Positions 10,317 to 18,051 of a stretch of DNA of 33,379 nt are shown here, one piece after another. The notes under the pieces were generated by a model. The model saw nothing but the letters and a program-made list of their open reading frames with translations, was not told the origin of the DNA and did not search any database. Position 1 is the stretch's first letter, and each line of letters begins with the position of its first letter. Both the position numbers and the translations under genes were made by a program. Source of the stretch: an uncultured Flavobacteriales bacterium (GTDB lineage Bacteria > Bacteroidota > Bacteroidia > Flavobacteriales_D > Crocinitomicaceae). Location of the stretch: NCBI GenBank assembly GCA_903945495.1, contig CAJAVU010000081.1:1-33379 (forward strand). Direction: 5' to 3'.

Positions 10317-11075
10317 GTGACTTTCGAAGAACTTAAAGATTTCTTGGATTTTAAAGCGGAACAATATGAACATCCGCGTTTTTTAGAAAGTGATCCGATT
10401 CAACTTCCACATCGTTTTTCAAAAAAAGAAGACATTGAACTAGTTGGTTTCTTGGTTTCTACCATCGCATGGGGAAATCGCGTCAGCATTATCAAAAGTG
10501 GTGAACGTTTGTTAGAAATCATGGAACAACAACCACATGCATTCATTCAAAATTATTCTTCTGAACAATTAAAAAATTCACATTTTGTGCATCGCACTTT
10601 CAACAGTACAGATTTAGATTTCTATTTCCGAAGCTTACAAGCAATTTACACAACAGGTGGATTGGAAAAAGCCTTTGAAAATAACACGAAGATTGAAGGT
10701 GTGAAAGGTCGAATTGTATCGTTTAGAAGTAAATTCATGGAAGTCGAACACTTGGATCGATCACACAAACATTTATCCAACCCAGAAAAAAACTCTGCTG
10801 CAAAACGTCTGAATATGTATTTGCGTTGGATGGTGCGAGATGCTTCCAAAGGTGTTGATTTTGGATTATGGAAATCAATATCTCCTTCAGAATTGTATTT
10901 ACCTTTAGATGTTCACACAAGTAACAATGCGCGTCGACTGGAGCTTTTAACAAGAAAACAAGACGATTGGAAAGCCTTAGATGAATTAATGAGCAACTTA
11001 CGAGAAATGGATGCTACTGATCCTGTGAAGTATGATTTTGCTTTGTTTGGTTTGGGGGCTTTTGAGAAGTTTTGA
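10317..11075 (+). CDS. TIGR02757 family protein (DUF2400)
   Basis: A 252-residue protein of the TIGR02757/DUF2400 family. Supporting segments are DPIQLPHRFSKKEDIELVGF (about 26-45), FLVSTIAWGNRVSI, the central RLNMYLRWMVRDASKGVDFG (about 163-183), and LYLPLDVHTSNNARRL (about 193-208). The RWMVR and PLDVH pattern recalls the helix-hairpin-helix DNA glycosylase fold, in which a conserved Asp is catalytic; this link is from general family knowledge and is not proven. The function is unknown. It starts with GTG two bases after the LolD-type gene and so belongs to the ribBA transcript. It is soluble, without signal peptide or membrane segments, and is of normal family length. Confidence 0.85.
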   Translation: MTFEELKDFLDFKAEQYEHPRFLESDPIQLPHRFSKKEDIELVGFLVSTIAWGNRVSIIKSGERLLEIMEQQPHAFIQNYSSEQLKNSHFVHRTFNSTDLDFYFRSLQAIYTTGGLEKAFENNTKIEGVKGRIVSFRSKFMEVEHLDRSHKHLSNPEKNSAAKRLNMYLRWMVRDASKGVDFGLWKSISPSELYLPLDVHTSNNARRLELLTRKQDDWKALDELMSNLREMDATDPVKYDFALFGLGAFEKF

Positions 11076-11134
11076 TTTGATTCTAGTACTTAATACCCTC
11101 TGAAAGTCAATAGAATCGGGAGTTATAAGTAACA

Positions 11135-11186
11135 TTGTTAACTTGCAAAGTTGTTAATTTGCAAAGTTGTAATGTTGTAATGTTGC
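11135..11186. repeat. Tandem direct repeats (16-bp and 8-bp units)
   Basis: TTGTTAACTTGCAAAG (11135-11150) is followed at once by a copy with one change (11151-11166), then by two copies of TTGTAATG (11167-11182) and TTGC. The reading is direct; the function is unknown. Confidence 0.75.
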
Positions 11187-11190
11187 TTGA

Positions 11191-11221
11191 AATAGTACTA
11201 TTCGTAATATTGCGAATTCGC
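11191..11221. repeat. Two perfect palindromes, AATAGTACTATT and GCGAATTCGC
   Basis: AATAGTACTATT (11191-11202) and GCGAATTCGC (11212-11221) are exact palindromes nine bases apart, directly after the tandem repeats. They may be part of one intergenic repeat element or weak protein-binding sites. Confidence 0.6.
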
Positions 11222-11415
11222 GAATTTCCAAAACCTACGTTGCTTCATCCTAAAATTTCAAAAACATCTGAGCACCTCCATTCCTTCCCAAAAAAAATGT
11301 TATTATAAATTCCACTTTTAATACCCCACACTACCTTCCATCTTTTTCTCATCACCACTTATCAATTTTAATTAACACCTGCTTTTTCTCCCAAATATTT
11401 GATTAAATTTGAAAC

Positions 11416-13464
11416 ATGAAGTTTGTCTATCCTGAATTTCTTTGGGCTTTTTTCGCGCTAGCGATTCCTATTATCATTCACTTATTCAACTTCCGTAAAT
11501 ACAAAACACTTTATTTCTCAAGTCTTCAGTTTATTAAGCACGTTGATCAACAAACACGTTCGACACAAAAACTCAAACATTTACTTGTTTTGGCGCTGCG
11601 ATTGCTCCTCTATTCCTTTATCATTTTTGCATTTGCTCAACCTTATATTCCAGCGAACGAAGGAAGTGAAACAGCTGGAAAACCAGTTTTAGCCATTTAC
11701 ATTGATAATTCATTTTCCATGACTGCAAAAGGAACGGAAGGAGAACTATTGTCGGAAGCACGCGAGATGTCGCGCAAAATGATCAATTCAGCGACCTTGG
11801 AAACAAGAATTCTATTGACCACAAATGCCATGAGCGGAATTGAACAACGCTTATTAACAAAAGTGGATGCCTTGGATTATTTGGATAAAATTGAACCTAG
11901 TGCTTTGGTACGTTCGCTCGATGATGTAATGAACTGGCAACGTGCTTTTATTGATAAAGAACATCTGAATAATCAAAAAATTGGCGTTCGTCAATATGTT
12001 TTCTTCTCGGATTTTCAGAAATCATCAGCCAAAACTGCTGAATTAAAAGAAGATGCCTTTTCGTTCTATTATCCAGTAAAATTAACACCTCAAGCAAAAG
12101 AAAACGTTTATATCGACTCCGTTTGGTTCAGTTCACCAATTCAACGAATCGGACAAAACAATGAACTAAATGTACGCGTTGTGAATGCAGGTGAAGAAGC
12201 TCTCACAAATGTTGAACTTCATTGTGAAATCACAGGAATTCGTCGTGATGTGTTCATGGATATTCCAGCGAATCAAAAAGCGACAACCATTATTAATTAT
12301 ACGGAGCAATCAGGTGGATTCAAAAAAGGAACGCTATCAGTAAACGACAAACAATTATTTTGGGATGATGATTATTTCTTCTCTTATTTTGTGGATAATC
12401 AGACGAATGTCTTAATCGTGAATGGTGCTGGATCCTCTCCTGCTGTATCTCAAGTGTATAATTTAGAACGTTTTTACAAGGTAAAATCAATTGATGAGAA
12501 CGCGTTTACGCTGGATGAACTGAATCAAGTTGATTTAGTGTTTGTCAACGGAATGAATGAATTGCCTTCTGGAATGGCGCAGAATCTAAAAGAATTTGCA
12601 CAATCAGGTGGAACGTTAGCATTATTTCCAGGTACTAAAGCTGATTTAGGATCTTGGAACAATTTGCTACAAGATTTACAAATGCCAAGCATGGGATCTG
12701 TACAGGCTTCTGGAACAAAAATCGAAAAGTTAGTATATGATGATCCGTTCTTCCACGAAATGTTTGAGAAGAAAAAGGAAAATTTGAACTTGCCAAGTGT
12801 ACGCAAAGCCTATCGAACAGCTGCTTCTGGATCAAATTCCTATTACGATTTAATTCGCTTACAAAATGGTTCTCCTCTTTTACTACGTTCTGGTGGAGCA
12901 ATCAATGTTTTCTTGTTTACATCATCGTTAGAAACTGAATTTAGTTCTTTTACAACCGATGCTTTGTTCCCTTCAATTGTATTGCGCATTGGTGAAATGA
13001 GCCAACGCAAAGCACCAATTTCATTGACCATTGGAAAAGAATCATTCTTCCCATTGTACAAAAAACAAACTGGTGAATCGCCAATTCATATCAAAAACAA
13101 GGAAGTTGATTTCATTCCTCAAATTAAGCAAGAAGGATTAATTAGTTATTTGTCGTTGAGCGGAATGGAACCTTTAGAAAACCTGAAGGCAGGAAACTAC
13201 GCTATTTGGGATGAAAAGAAAGAAGGTGAAATGTCCTTGAATTACGATCGAACGGAATCAGATATTAGCTGTTTTAGCGAAAATGAAATCGTTGATTTAT
13301 TGGAAGAAAAAGGCCTTAAGAATGTTAGTTTCAGTGAAATTAATGAAGGACAAAGTCTTACAAAAATAGATATTGAAAAACCATTCGAATATTGGAAAAC
13401 AGCCATTTTATTAGCATTACTGATGCTGTTAGCCGAAATGATGGTGATTAAATTTTGGAAATAA
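11416..13464 (+). CDS. BatA-type membrane protein with N-terminal aerotolerance domain and VWA-like domain
   Basis: A 682-residue inner-membrane protein. Residues 1-80 are the BatA N-terminal domain (TIGR02226 type): a first helix WAFFALAIPIIIHLF, the family motif FNFRKYKTLYFSSLQF, and a second helix LLVLALRLLLYSFIIFAFAQP. A VWA-like domain follows with the MIDAS-type motif Asp97-x-Ser99-x-Ser101 in YIDNSFSM. A long periplasmic part then contains a region about 350-420 resembling a glutamine-amidotransferase-like fold, and a final helix (about 660-678) anchors the C-terminus. Bat proteins were first linked to aerotolerance in Bacteroides; the role of this long solitary form is unknown. It is 12 bases upstream of the dihydroorotase-like gene, so the two are probably co-transcribed. 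Confidence 0.85.
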   Translation: MKFVYPEFLWAFFALAIPIIIHLFNFRKYKTLYFSSLQFIKHVDQQTRSTQKLKHLLVLALRLLLYSFIIFAFAQPYIPANEGSETAGKPVLAIYIDNSFSMTAKGTEGELLSEAREMSRKMINSATLETRILLTTNAMSGIEQRLLTKVDALDYLDKIEPSALVRSLDDVMNWQRAFIDKEHLNNQKIGVRQYVFFSDFQKSSAKTAELKEDAFSFYYPVKLTPQAKENVYIDSVWFSSPIQRIGQNNELNVRVVNAGEEALTNVELHCEITGIRRDVFMDIPANQKATTIINYTEQSGGFKKGTLSVNDKQLFWDDDYFFSYFVDNQTNVLIVNGAGSSPAVSQVYNLERFYKVKSIDENAFTLDELNQVDLVFVNGMNELPSGMAQNLKEFAQSGGTLALFPGTKADLGSWNNLLQDLQMPSMGSVQASGTKIEKLVYDDPFFHEMFEKKKENLNLPSVRKAYRTAASGSNSYYDLIRLQNGSPLLLRSGGAINVFLFTSSLETEFSSFTTDALFPSIVLRIGEMSQRKAPISLTIGKESFFPLYKKQTGESPIHIKNKEVDFIPQIKQEGLISYLSLSGMEPLENLKAGNYAIWDEKKEGEMSLNYDRTESDISCFSENEIVDLLEEKGLKNVSFSEINEGQSLTKIDIEKPFEYWKTAILLALLMLLAEMMVIKFWK

Positions 13465-13476
13465 AACGCATACACA

Positions 13477-14736
13477 ATGAAAATTCTCATTAAACAAGCC
13501 ACAATTCTTGACACACGTTCAAGCTTACTCAACAAGAAAATGGACATTCTTGTAACAGATGGAATAATTGAAGCAATTGAAAATTCGATTGATTCAGCAG
13601 ATGCGCAAGTATTGGTAGGCGAGAATTTAGTTGTTTCGCAAGGTTGGGTTGATTTAAAAGCGAATTTTTGTGATCCAGGTGAAGAACATAAAGAAACGAT
13701 TGATAGTGGATTAGATGCTGCCGCATTTGGAGGTTACACACATGTTGCCGTCTTACCGAGCACGCATCCAGTTGTCGATGGTAAAACACAAGTAGAATAC
13801 ATTTTACGTCGCGCTGAGAATCATGTCACAAGCATTCATCCAATTGGTGCGATTACAGAAAAAATGACAGGCGAAAACTTAGCTGAAATGTATGACATGT
13901 ACCAGACTGGTGTACGTTTGTTTTCAGATGATTTAGTACCTGTAAACTCAGGGATAATGTATCGTGCCTTACTTTACTCCAAAAATTTTAACGGAAAAAT
14001 CATCGCATTTTCAAGAGATTATGCTTTGGCTGGAAAAGGAATGGTGAACGAAGGTGAAGCTTCAACGCGTACAGGATTGAAGGCAGATGCGACGATTTCT
14101 GAAATTATTCAAGTTGAACGCAATATCCGTCTGACAGAATACACAGAAGGATCAATTCACTTAACAGGAATTTCGTGTGCTGAGAGTGTTGATTTGGTCA
14201 GAAAAGCGAAAACAAAAGGATTAAACATTACAGCTGATGTGCATGTAATGAATTTAGTGTATAACGAAACTGCCGTTTTAGGATTTGATTCTAACTTCAA
14301 AGTAATGCCTGTTCTTCGTCGCGAATCAGATCGTATAGCCTTATGGGAAGGACTGAAAGACGGAACAATTGATACGATTGTTTCTGATCATCGTCCGCAT
14401 GACAAAGAAGAAAAAGATGTTGAATTTGACAATGCATCATTCGGTTGTATCAATCTACAAACGGTTATTTCGGCACTTTCCGAATGTAAAGAATTTGATT
14501 TATCCGTTGTAATTAAAGCACTTTCTATCAATGCACGTGAAATTTCATCCATCACTGAACATCCGATTGAAGTTGGAAATAAAGCTGATTTAACAGTTTA
14601 CGCTCCTCATAATCAATGGACTTTCACGAAAGACCTTATCTGTTCTCAGACTATCAACACGCCGTATGTTGGTAAAGATTTGAAAGGTTCAGTTCTTGGA
14701 ATCATAAATAACGGTAAATTAGCTATCAGAGACTAA
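13477..14736 (+). CDS. Dihydroorotase homologue lacking the metal-binding histidines
   Basis: A 419-residue amidohydrolase-superfamily protein clearly related to class I dihydroorotase, the enzyme that cyclises carbamoyl-aspartate in pyrimidine synthesis. The frame is [20 protein letters not shown] (53-72), [13 protein letters not shown], and [13 protein letters not shown] (301-313). The metal ligands are missing, however. The usual HxH after the Asp is Lys61-Ala62-Asn63, the substrate Arg is Cys65, the mid-protein HxED is Phe178-Ser-Arg-Asp, and the later HxxHxST His is Gly231. Asp304 is kept. It is therefore probably not a working dihydroorotase and may be a structural partner, for example of aspartate carbamoyltransferase, as known for PyrC-like pseudoenzymes in some bacteria. 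It lies between a BatA protein and a methyltransferase with gaps of 12 and 4 bases. The frame is intact, so it is not a pseudogene. Confidence 0.85.
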
Positions 14737-14740
14737 AAGT

Positions 14741-15304
14741 ATGCCGAATAAAAAGTCCTTTTTAAAACAGTTCTGGAAAGAGAAAAAAATGGTTGGTGCA
14801 ATGGCGCCAAGCTCACGTTTTCTTGCAAAAAAAATGCTTGAAAACATCGATTTCTCAAAAGCAAAAGTACTGGTTGAATTAGGTCCCGGCACAGGTGTTT
14901 TCACTGATAAAATCTTAGAAAAAATGGCACCAGATGCTGTTTTATTGGTTTTTGAATTACACGATGCTTTTTGTACTCAATTACAAAATCGTATTTCAGA
15001 TAAACGCGTGCATATTATTCATGACTCAGCAGAAAAAATTGAAGAGTATCTCGTTAAATATGAATTAGGTAAAGCAGATGTTGTTATATCATCACTACCG
15101 CTTGCTAATTTCCCGCAAGAGTTGAGAAATTCAATCTTACAAGCTTCTCACAAATCCTTAACAGAAGTGGGGAAATACATTCAATTCCAGTACTCATTGC
15201 AATCGAAAAAACACATCAAAAAAGTGTTTAATGAAGTCTCAATTGATTTCACACCATTGAACTTCCCTCCTGCTTTTGTTTATACGTGCAATAAGGCAGA
15301 TTAG
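14741..15304 (+). CDS. SAM-dependent methyltransferase, phospholipid N-methyltransferase-like (COG3963)
   Basis: A 187-residue protein with a class I methyltransferase fold. The N-terminus FLKQFWKEKKMVGAMAPSSR (7-26), then VLVELGPGTGVFTDKIL (about 43-59, the S-adenosylmethionine loop) and VISSLPLANFP (about 115-125), match the COG3963 proteins related to PmtA, which methylate phosphatidylethanolamine to phosphatidylcholine. The rRNA adenine dimethylase family shares the GPGTG loop but has NLPY in place of SSLPL, so the lipid-type assignment fits better. The substrate is unproven. The ATG at 14741 is 4 bases after the dihydroorotase-like stop, so it ends a three-gene unit. No signal peptide or membrane helix is seen; peripheral membrane contact through the basic N-terminus is plausible. 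Confidence 0.8.
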   Translation: MPNKKSFLKQFWKEKKMVGAMAPSSRFLAKKMLENIDFSKAKVLVELGPGTGVFTDKILEKMAPDAVLLVFELHDAFCTQLQNRISDKRVHIIHDSAEKIEEYLVKYELGKADVVISSLPLANFPQELRNSILQASHKSLTEVGKYIQFQYSLQSKKHIKKVFNEVSIDFTPLNFPPAFVYTCNKAD

Positions 15305-15341
15305 CACTTAACATTCTCAAACTTTCTTTTTAATCGGTAAA

Positions 15342-15355
15342 ACTGACAGTTCAGT
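15342..15355. repeat. Inverted repeat ACTGA-N4-TCAGT
   Basis: A perfect 5-bp inverted repeat around CAGT, about 66 bases before the small ORF at 15421. It has the size and shape of a regulator operator half-site pair, but no regulator gene is next to it and chance is possible. Confidence 0.3.
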
Positions 15356-15420
15356 CAACCTTGCTGAAAATGGTATAATTCTTGGCTATATTTCTTTCAG
15401 AAACAGTAACAATCGATGCC

Positions 15421-15552
15421 ATGAAAACAAAACTCGACATTCAGAAAATTTTGCACAGCCGCAAAAGCACTCAAAAAAGCATTGGCTCTTTCGACAAAGC
15501 CTTGATGGGATTGGGAATTAAGTTCACAAAGAGCGATAAATCAGAAAAATAA
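15421..15552 (+). CDS. Possible small basic protein, 43 codons
   Basis: An ATG-to-TAA frame in the 257-base gap between two convergent genes. The product is 43 residues, strongly basic (about eleven Lys, one Arg), with no signal peptide. A central SIGSFDKALMGLGIKFTK stretch could form an amphipathic segment. Codon use looks like that of its neighbours, and the A-rich bases after the ATG are typical of starts here. I see no promoter with both boxes upstream, and the family is not known to me. It ends ten bases before the stop of the convergent TonB-type receptor gene. It may be real, but the evidence is only the open frame. Confidence 0.4.
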   Translation: MKTKLDIQKILHSRKSTQKSIGSFDKALMGLGIKFTKSDKSEK

Positions 15553-15561
15553 TTTTTCTTT

Positions 15562-18051
15562 TTAGAAATCTCCTCCGCCTTCTCCGCCTCCTGCTGATTT
15601 CTTTGGTGCCATTTCCAACTTACCGAACTTGTAGGAGAACGTTAAGAAAAATCGTCTTGTCAACCATTTAAACTCCATTGATTGATCAATTCCTGGCTGA
15701 TCCAAAGTCATGTAAAATCCTTGGCGATTGAACACGTCCGAAACGCGCATTCCAACAGAAATCTTACCTTCCTTAAATGTTTTTTCTGCTGAAATATCAA
15801 CAGGTCCGCGACGCTGAACAACACCTTGAACAGTAACACGAGGTCCATTATACGTTGCGTTCACTTGAATTGAAGCCGTTCGTTTCCAGAACTCAACTGT
15901 CCCTGAATATTTCATATTCCAGTTAAAACCTCCAACATTCCAGTTTGCCGTCGTATTATCATCTACATATTGCGTGTAATTCGCATTCGCAGATAAGGTA
16001 TTTCTCCACCATTTATAAGGCTTAATGACAAAAATTGCCTCAGCACCAACGCTATGACTTTCATCTAAATTGGCAAATGAAACAGTCGAAACGTTATTGG
16101 CATCAAATGTTTTGATGCGAGATATTACCCCTGTTGTGTGGCGATAAAAAACACTTGTCGTGAAATTCATTAGTTTTCGTTCATTCGAATATCCTAAATC
16201 GTATGAATCAATGAATTCTGGTTGTAAATAAGGATTTCCTCTTCGTAAATTATACGGATCTGCATAACTTGTGAAAGGATTTAAATCAGCTGATTGTGCG
16301 CGATTAATTCTTCTAGAATAACTCAAACTTATTTCTGATTTTTCTGTGAAGGCATATCGAATATGTGCAGATGGAAATATGTTGAAATAATGATTTACAA
16401 TGCGAATCGTGTCTGAAAGCAATTCTGGAATTTGATAGGCTTTTTCAACACGCAAACCTACTTGATACTTGAACTTTTTCAATTGTTGCCCAAAGATTCC
16501 ATACGCACTATAAATCTGCTCATTGTAGGCATAATCAAAATTGGACAAGGTATCTTCTAAGTAATTTGAAGTCAAGGTATCCAATGTTTCTGAATAAGTA
16601 TTCACACTTTGTTGACGAATGATTGTTTTTACTCCTGTTTCCAAACGTGCATTTTTCTTTGGCATCAAGTAGGTAAAATCAAATTGTCCGCTTGTTATGT
16701 TGTTTTTTTCTTTGTTAAATAGGCGCTGATCCAACGCTGCTTGCGCTTTTGCTGTAGAATCGGCATTATAATCTTGTTGAAAATAAAACCCTTGAATGTT
16801 ATCACTTCCCAATGACTGATTCAAATCAACCATCCAATTTCCACGATCATCTTTCAAATCGTGTTTATAATTCATGTTAAAATCGAAATTCTGTTGTTGT
16901 GAAGGATCATCAGCATAACGTTTCCATAACCTCAACAAACTATCTGTTCCCGTCATTGATTTATTCCATTGATCACCCGTTCTGTTGCGCTCTCCAACAC
17001 TACCTGTAACGGAGAAACCTATAACATTTCGCGGTTTTAGATAAAAATCAGCTCCTGCACGAAATGTATGTCCAAAATTTTGATCTGTTCCCAATCGGTT
17101 TTGATCCAATTTTATCATAGAATCCACTGTAATGTCTCGCTCTAAATACATAAACTGATTGCGATAACCATCCAAGTAGCGTCCGGAATAACTACCAAAT
17201 GTGTTCAATTTAGAATTTCTAAAACTCAATGATATTGATCCTTCTGCAACATTCCCTCCATTCAAATCACCTGAACCCAATGTTGACGTAATCAATCCAT
17301 TAAATCCACGCATCTTGTTCTTTTTCAAAACAATGTTGATAATCCCAGACGTTCCATCTGGATCATATTTCGCTGATGGATTTGTCACTACTTCAATACG
17401 TTCTATTGAACCAGCTGGCAAAGCATCCAACAATGTTTTTCCGTTTCCTCCTGATATTGAACTTGGTCGACCATCAATTAATACGGTTACAGCTCCATCA
17501 CCACGCAAAGTAACACCACCTTCTTGATTCACTTCAACGGAAGGAATGTTATTCAACACGTCATTTGCAGTTCCACCTTTAACAGACAAATCTTCTCCAA
17601 CATTATATACTTTCTTGTCGATTCCAGCTTTTAACACATCTAATTGTCCAACAACCTTCACCTCACCCAATGCTTTTGTTTCAACCGGACGAAGCCTGAT
17701 GGTTCCCAAATTAGCTACCTTAACGGCAGTCGAAATTTTAATATCGCTAATCAATTCAAGATTATAGTCTGCAAAGACAATCTTTCCATAATAATTGCCA
17801 AATGGAATTTGCTCAAACGTAAATTTACCTTCTGAATCTGTATAAATTCCGGAATACAACGTAGAATCACTTGCTTTGTATAATTTAAAGGCAACATACT
17901 CCATCGGAACCTCTGATTTTGCGTCGATAATTTTTCCTGATATAATTCCTTCACCCATCAACGGTTTTGTTCCCTGAGAAAAAAGCAGGAATGAACTGAA
18001 AAGAAAAGAAAAGCTTAGTATGGCTTTTTGGATATTTGTAAAATTTGTCAT
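15562..18051 (-). CDS. TonB-dependent receptor-like outer membrane beta-barrel protein
   Basis: An 829-residue outer-membrane protein. A signal peptide (about 1-25, with AILSFSFLFSSFLLFSQ) is followed by a CarboxypepD_reg-like beta-sandwich (about 36-120, IISGKIIDAKSEVPMEYVAF). The plug domain comes next (about 150-245, with NVLNNIPSVEV-type and VLIDGRPSS segments and ERIEVVTNPSAKYDPDGTSG), then a long beta-barrel of the OMP_b-brl_3 type. The C-terminus is an unusual Gly-rich tail ending GGGEGGGDF. Such receptors import bulky nutrients or metal chelates with energy from TonB-ExbBD, but members of this branch without a SusD partner have varied or unknown substrates. No SusD gene, sigma or anti-sigma gene is adjacent, so the ligand cannot be inferred. 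It follows marR-osmC on the same strand but has its own -7 box. Confidence 0.9.
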   Translation of the reverse strand: MTNFTNIQKAILSFSFLFSSFLLFSQGTKPLMGEGIISGKIIDAKSEVPMEYVAFKLYKASDSTLYSGIYTDSEGKFTFEQIPFGNYYGKIVFADYNLELISDIKISTAVKVANLGTIRLRPVETKALGEVKVVGQLDVLKAGIDKKVYNVGEDLSVKGGTANDVLNNIPSVEVNQEGGVTLRGDGAVTVLIDGRPSSISGGNGKTLLDALPAGSIERIEVVTNPSAKYDPDGTSGIINIVLKKNKMRGFNGLITSTLGSGDLNGGNVAEGSISLSFRNSKLNTFGSYSGRYLDGYRNQFMYLERDITVDSMIKLDQNRLGTDQNFGHTFRAGADFYLKPRNVIGFSVTGSVGERNRTGDQWNKSMTGTDSLLRLWKRYADDPSQQQNFDFNMNYKHDLKDDRGNWMVDLNQSLGSDNIQGFYFQQDYNADSTAKAQAALDQRLFNKEKNNITSGQFDFTYLMPKKNARLETGVKTIIRQQSVNTYSETLDTLTSNYLEDTLSNFDYAYNEQIYSAYGIFGQQLKKFKYQVGLRVEKAYQIPELLSDTIRIVNHYFNIFPSAHIRYAFTEKSEISLSYSRRINRAQSADLNPFTSYADPYNLRRGNPYLQPEFIDSYDLGYSNERKLMNFTTSVFYRHTTGVISRIKTFDANNVSTVSFANLDESHSVGAEAIFVIKPYKWWRNTLSANANYTQYVDDNTTANWNVGGFNWNMKYSGTVEFWKRTASIQVNATYNGPRVTVQGVVQRRGPVDISAEKTFKEGKISVGMRVSDVFNRQGFYMTLDQPGIDQSMEFKWLTRRFFLTFSYKFGKLEMAPKKSAGGGEGGGDF

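Follow-up and report, generated by a model that had tools for sequence, protein, structure and literature searches.

In the complex of Aquifex aeolicus that is formed by dihydroorotase (DHO) and aspartate carbamoyltransferase (ATCase), two PyrB trimers are bridged by three DHO dimers. For Pseudomonas aeruginosa, the accessible text of PMC7053772 reports that the PyrB chain alone is monomeric and inactive and that the pseudo-DHO (pDHO), at a ratio of about 1:1, restores the activity. An inactive pseudo-DHO serving as an ATCase subunit is thus a kind of protein that is already known. Here we analyse a stretch of 33,379 nucleotides from an uncultured Flavobacteriales bacterium, called the window below, which contains a gene for a type-I DHO homologue with no metal site. 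We also call it pDHO, and we consider it likely that it is a non-catalytic pseudo-dihydroorotase subunit of a class-A-type (class-A2-like) ATCase and would bind PyrB. The source genome comprises 114 contigs with a total of 3.64 Mb and a completeness of 99.99%. It probably belongs to the Crocinitomicaceae, with Lishizhenia tianjinensis (58%) as the nearest isolate among the matches; the placement is tentative, since metagenome-assembled records that match more closely carry conflicting names (Flavobacteriales, Chitinophaga, Chryseobacterium and even Kuenenia). In the following, class-level genomes are those from the source's own bacterial class within the Bacteroidota and out-of-class genomes are those from beyond that class. 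The features of the locus are collected in Table 1.

Table 1. Features of the pDHO locus, in window coordinates.
Feature	Position	Strand	Basis or remark
BatA-like membrane protein (PF07584 N-terminal domain)	11416..13464	+	upstream neighbour, ends 12 bases before pDHO
pDHO (metal-site-less type-I dihydroorotase, pseudo-DHO)	13477..14736	+	419 aa; profile, PDB, alignment and model matches
K61-A62-N63 codons; HxH (alpha-metal ligands) in intact homologues	13657..13665	+	alignment
C65 codon; Arg in 43/43 intact homologues	13669..13671	+	alignment
D152 codon; Aquifex Asp153, alpha-metal ligand, retained	13930..13932	+	alignment
F178 codon; His (beta site) in intact homologues	14008..14010	+	alignment
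G231 codon; His (beta site) in intact homologues	14167..14169	+	alignment
D304 codon; Aquifex Asp305, retained	14386..14388	+	alignment
Small SAM methyltransferase	14741..15304	+	downstream neighbour, starts 4 bases after pDHO; OlsG/PmtA models matched below cut-offs

The reading frame of pDHO begins with ATG and has zero internal stops. The curated model TIGR00857 (pyrC_multi) matches residues 21-419 with 293.5 bits, over its cut-off of 279.05, which places the protein in the type-I subfamily, and these results bear out the full-length class I dihydroorotase frame that an earlier note on this DNA had described. In the Pfam search, PF01979 is the sole match at E 0.001, with no match to PF01948 (PyrI, the regulatory chain of class B ATCase). 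In the PDB sequence search, the Aquifex DHO 3d6n_A matches over residues 1-419 with E 5.1e-72, and the Aquifex complex (4bjh/3d6n, chains A and B) gives the top match for pDHO as well as for the PyrB of this genome. A structure model of pDHO (pLDDT 95.4), which superposes on 3d6n_A with a TM of 0.95 and an rmsd of 1.9 Å, supports the retention of the fold. It is noted that in the fold search with this model the first place by Z is shared by 4bjh_A, 3d6n_A and 2z00 (2z00 within Z 1), and that the free-standing DHO structures 2z00 and 4yiw fit the model almost as closely as 3d6n does. Scans of 11000-15600 found no excess of promoters (15 versus 14.0 in shuffles) or terminators (3 versus 3.2).

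The alignment agrees with the earlier note on every residue that it gave, i.e., K61-A62-N63, C65, F178, G231 and D304. In Aquifex numbering, His61, His63, Arg65, His180 and His232 are replaced by Lys, Asn, Cys, Phe and Gly, respectively, while H, H, R, H and H stand at these positions of pDHO (K61, N63, C65, F178 and G231) in 43 of the 43 intact homologues. The residue set by which a catalytic type-I DHO is recognised, with the HxH motif, the Arg for the substrate and the rest of the active site, is thus broken in pDHO. With regard to the loss of the metal site, for which the note had listed Asp304 as the residue that stays, the five replacements are real, but the second acidic ligand, D152, is also retained. 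Hence pDHO is a full-length type-I DHO fold minus the zinc ligands and substrate residues, with two acidic ligands kept, as looked for in the pDHO of a class A2 ATCase. The replaced residues are not of equal weight. For the beta-site residues His180 and His232 of Aquifex, the accessible text of PMC3880350 describes single mutants that are kinetically like the wild type and a double mutant with unaltered Km and a Vmax that is 21% lower. Because these two His residues are dispensable in Aquifex, the telling losses are those of H61, H63 and R65.

Among the class-level homologues that were read, the loss is general. In a near set of 40 genomes (the source itself, 24 of the same genus and 15 of the same order), the pDHO gene is present in 38, in one of which (G015) it is split in two pieces across different contigs; of the other two, G033 has the other DHO only, with no pDHO, and G035 (78% complete) has neither. 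We also observed that G001 (same genus, 64% complete) has two full-length pDHO matches, on contigs C161 and C185, which are 71% and 58% identical to the protein of the window. Among 223 distinct homologues, 175 are without the metal site (including the window protein and two out-of-class copies, from G040 and G134), 45 are with it and 3 are of the QxH type; the intact set used here is 43 including Aquifex, with L140 and L141 excluded from the 45 as not being type-I proteins of the subfamily. A complete HxH occurs in none of the 175 metal-site-less proteins, the first His in 3, the second His in 39 and the substrate Arg in 11. The nearest relative, L004 (94% identical), has K-A-H, i.e., it retains the second His of HxH.

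The eight metal and substrate positions, invariant in the 43 intact proteins, sit at the 40th-84th variability percentile in the 175. A conservation of at least 93% among the intact proteins is found at 77 positions, of which 44 stay at 80% or more in the 175 and 19 drop below 50%, and six of the eight metal and substrate positions are among these 19, the exceptions being Asn95 (89/175) and Asp304 (109/175). In the alignment of homologues that the earlier note had called for, the loss is thus shared, while the replacements themselves are not conserved. Since the replaced residues vary across the homologues, the pocket appears to have been released and not re-purposed. At the same time, dN/dS is 0.030-0.093 in 8 pairs (two of which have high dS, 1.35 and 2.11). 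This range and the open frames of the 175 relatives rule out a decayed pseudogene, in agreement with the statement of the note that the gene is not decayed. Because the loss is common to the whole group and the frame is under purifying selection, it is more than a chance event.

In the unrooted tree, the class-level metal-less proteins form one side of a branch (46 rows versus 43) with a support of 100/100. When the two out-of-class metal-less copies are added, again in an unrooted tree, the class-level side holds 25 rows with a support of 97/93, and the copies of G040 and G134 have no firm placement in that tree. All the out-of-class type-I homologues that were read retain the metal site except these two, and one class-level copy, that of G110 (family f19), has an intact metal site. 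Moreover, in 9 of 24 out-of-class loci (L089-L112, with flanks of about 2 kb), pyrR-pyrB is located immediately upstream of the DHO gene. In G040 (L218, 3986-6216), the start of the metal-less DHO gene and the pyrB stop share 4 bases, and a search of this genome at E 1e-60 gave no DHO of the NF006688 type; in G134, the metal-less copy is located away from its pyrB.

The earlier note had proposed searching for a second, intact pyrC in the genome, and a candidate is present at L002 371-1741 (minus strand, 456 aa). This protein scores 712.5 bits against NF006688 (cut-off 535), matches Porphyromonas gingivalis 2gwn with E 1.6e-158 and has most of the metal site, with QxH replacing HxH, so that it is the putative other catalytic DHO that a class A2 organism is expected to have. 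A DHO of the NF006688 type is found over the cut-off in 55 of the 55 class-level genomes having pDHO, and also in G033, six f15 genomes and two f21 genomes, 64 in total, while 9 out-of-class genomes that have an intact type-I DHO were searched at E 1e-60 and none of them contains it. As a side observation, Gln takes the place of the first HxH His (DDQVHFREP) in the presumed catalytic DHO of 21 of the 22 loci that were readable by a motif scan of 35 loci, some of which contain the same gene. The single HxH in the scan is that of L141, from the PyrI-bearing G268, and P. gingivalis 2gwn likewise has QxH.

We now turn to the presumed partner. The source genome has one PyrB (L003), whose gene overlaps pyrR on a contig other than that of pDHO, and no match to PyrI in the 99.99% complete assembly; the presence of PyrB together with the absence of PyrI is a further feature of class A2. 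PyrI was found in at least 3 of the 296 genomes of the phylum sample (taken as the same 296 used in the pDHO search), in 0 of 38 near relatives, and in none of the 55 pDHO-bearing genomes among the matches listed. In the 67 class-level genomes where PyrB was examined, 55 with pDHO and 12 without, all 55 pDHO-bearing genomes have a PyrB 68-87% identical to L003, and 11 of the 12 genomes without pDHO are also without a PyrB of this type. The six genomes of family f15 have a PyrB 41-42% identical to L003, the two of family f21 have one 34% identical and accompanied by PyrI, and G110 (f19) has one 48% identical, beside its intact type-I DHO. No pDHO is found in G204 (f19) or G035; in G035 PyrB is absent, and in G204 no PyrB scores over the cut-off. 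It is noted that the genome of G204 is of 5.5 Mb with a listed completeness of 100%. The exception is G033, which has the common PyrB type (86%) and in which no pDHO was found; an assembly gap or a joint loss is possible there because the assembly is split into about 120 contigs and also lacks the BatA-like gene.

In judging this co-occurrence, it should be kept in mind that it amounts to about three independent losses (f15, f21 and f19) and not to 67 independent points, and that the absence of pDHO in G248, G303 and G315 comes from a single search at E 1e-40. In a PyrB tree made by a quick method, with a long-branch warning, the PyrBs of the 55 genomes and of G033 form one group (SH-aLRT 96), to which neither those of f15 nor those linked to PyrI belong. 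The distances of pDHO and PyrB co-vary over 54 genomes with r 0.61, a value that is confounded by the species tree. The sequence of PyrB cannot tell class A from class C, because the genome's PyrB matches Aquifex (E 2.2e-61) only slightly better than it matches the free-standing Bacillus subtilis trimer 2at2 (E 2.2e-59). The location directly after pyrB that goes with the Pseudomonas pDHO, an accompanying and not a defining trait, is not found in the source genome, and in the loci from this class no pyrB was seen beside pDHO. As for the suggestion of the earlier note that the protein could hold ATCase together, the distribution of the PyrB types fits a putative PyrC-like subunit. It is also observed that all six f15 genomes (G051, G133, G248, G303, G315 and G319) are without pDHO and the BatA-like gene, with no PyrI among the matches listed. 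Because they lack all three and their PyrB is distinct, the data suggest that the f15 PyrB may work alone.

Based on the loss of the metal site, the tree grouping, the second DHO, the co-occurrence with one PyrB type and the adjacent or overlapping pyrB in related lineages, all of them sequence-level support, and on the fold retained in the model, we propose the following pathway. The ancestral type-I DHO would have been active within a PyrB-DHO complex of the Aquifex kind. In an ancestor inside this class, the DHO reaction would have been taken over by an enzyme of the 2gwn/NF006688 type, and the old DHO would then have lost its metal site. After the loss of catalysis, pDHO would have been retained for the sake of PyrB, whose active trimer and dodecamer would still depend on it for their formation or stability. 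The binding to PyrB, the need of PyrB for pDHO, the lack of DHO activity and the order of the events are the parts of this pathway that we infer.

Other readings of the data have to be considered. One is that pDHO has remained an active dihydroorotase in spite of its missing metal site and so resembles the Zur-regulated PyrC paralogue of Pseudomonas, which is cited in the accessible text of PMC2770081 as active though its zinc residues are unconserved. D152, D304 and H305, which are still in pDHO, would be in line with this; however, a conserved alternative chemistry is hard to square with pocket residues that change between lineages and are about as variable as the average position, Arg at the substrate position has survived in just the 11 proteins mentioned above, and every examined class-level genome with pDHO has another, presumed catalytic DHO. 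With the pocket drifting in this way, we regard a residual metal-independent enzyme as highly improbable. The drift itself, by which the pocket is rebuilt differently in every lineage, could be read in another way, namely that pDHO is a regulatory subunit of ATCase that senses a ligand, binding an effector in its emptied pocket, and that substitutes functionally for PyrI; the pDHO-bearing genomes have no PyrI among the matches listed, and f21 has PyrI with no pDHO. Nevertheless, no new pocket signature is conserved across the lineages, f15 is without pDHO and, among the matches listed, also without PyrI, and the nucleotide effect in P. aeruginosa is ascribed, in the accessible text of PMC7053772, to binding at the PyrB chain and destabilisation of the complex and not to allostery in pDHO. 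This sensing role thus seems to us quite unlikely.

The run of the BatA-like gene, pDHO and the small methyltransferase gene (window 11416-15304) is common in the genus, and the first two genes adjoin far into the class. It might be argued from this that the protein which pDHO serves is not PyrB but the BatA-like membrane protein of the gene just before it. Of the same-genus loci (L004-L026), 23 of 23 have the BatA-like gene adjoining pDHO, as do many distant loci, and because both genes are missing in f15 and in G033, some link between them is indicated. By contrast, seven of ten f14 genomes have pDHO with no BatA match at E 1e-5 and two more have a match to an N-terminal stretch only, both f19 genomes have a full-length BatA and no pDHO, in G026 the BatA-like gene and pDHO are 1.3 Mb apart on one contig, and in out-of-class genomes BatA is located away from the DHO gene. 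As the patterns of presence and absence dissociate, an obligate partnership is unlikely and the BatA-like gene is probably a linked gene; that pDHO serves the BatA-like protein in place of PyrB is, in our estimate, very unlikely. A more speculative idea, to which we give a low probability, is that, once catalysis had been lost in an ancestor, pDHO was free to evolve in much of the class into an ATCase subunit for effector sensing or membrane tethering, with lineage-specific pockets, and that its BatA-like neighbour couples pyrimidine synthesis to the envelope.

If pDHO is the non-catalytic ATCase subunit that we propose, the ATCase in much of the class is predicted to be a large class-A complex, and the protein would be a clear case of an enzyme that turned into a lasting non-catalytic protein after another family assumed its reaction. 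The lineages without the dead protein, which carry a PyrB of another type, are natural controls; the extent in the class together with the differing PyrB types makes a useful natural experiment and not a new kind of protein. Moreover, because the curated model TIGR00857 labels such proteins dihydroorotase, anyone reading the genomes of this class is likely to count two DHOs in them. A search of the open-access literature, outside which most subscription journals lie, found no report of this protein in Bacteroidota, so that neither its extent there nor the replacement of the catalytic DHO seems to have been reported within that literature.

Finally, we compare pDHO with the known systems. The PyrC' gene of Pseudomonas lies directly after pyrB, whereas the Bacteroidota pDHO follows the BatA-like gene and has not been seen beside pyrB; here, moreover, the tree shows one group-wide loss, and the presumed catalytic DHO is of the 2gwn/NF006688 type. 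That enzyme of Porphyromonas gingivalis, the type to which L002 belongs, is of the same fold family as pDHO but of a different subfamily, the two being 26% identical over residues 216-416. The DHO-ATC of Aquifex aeolicus (3d6n, 4bjh; class A1) is the best sequence match for pDHO and PyrB and the top fold match, but its DHO, unlike pDHO, carries the metal site and shows activity within the complex (accessible text of PMC3880350). The CAD-like protein of fungi also retains a metal-less DHO beside ATCase, where, unlike pDHO, the pseudo-DHO domain is fused with CPS2 and ATCase in one polypeptide, as described in the accessible parts of PMC7053772 and PMC4581275. The likeness is to the PyrC'/pDHO of the class A2 ATCase of Pseudomonas, which, by the accessible parts of PMC7053772 and PMC2770081, is a type-I DHO homologue without zinc ligands, with other PyrC paralogues in some genomes and with PyrB as its partner in a dodecamer without PyrI.
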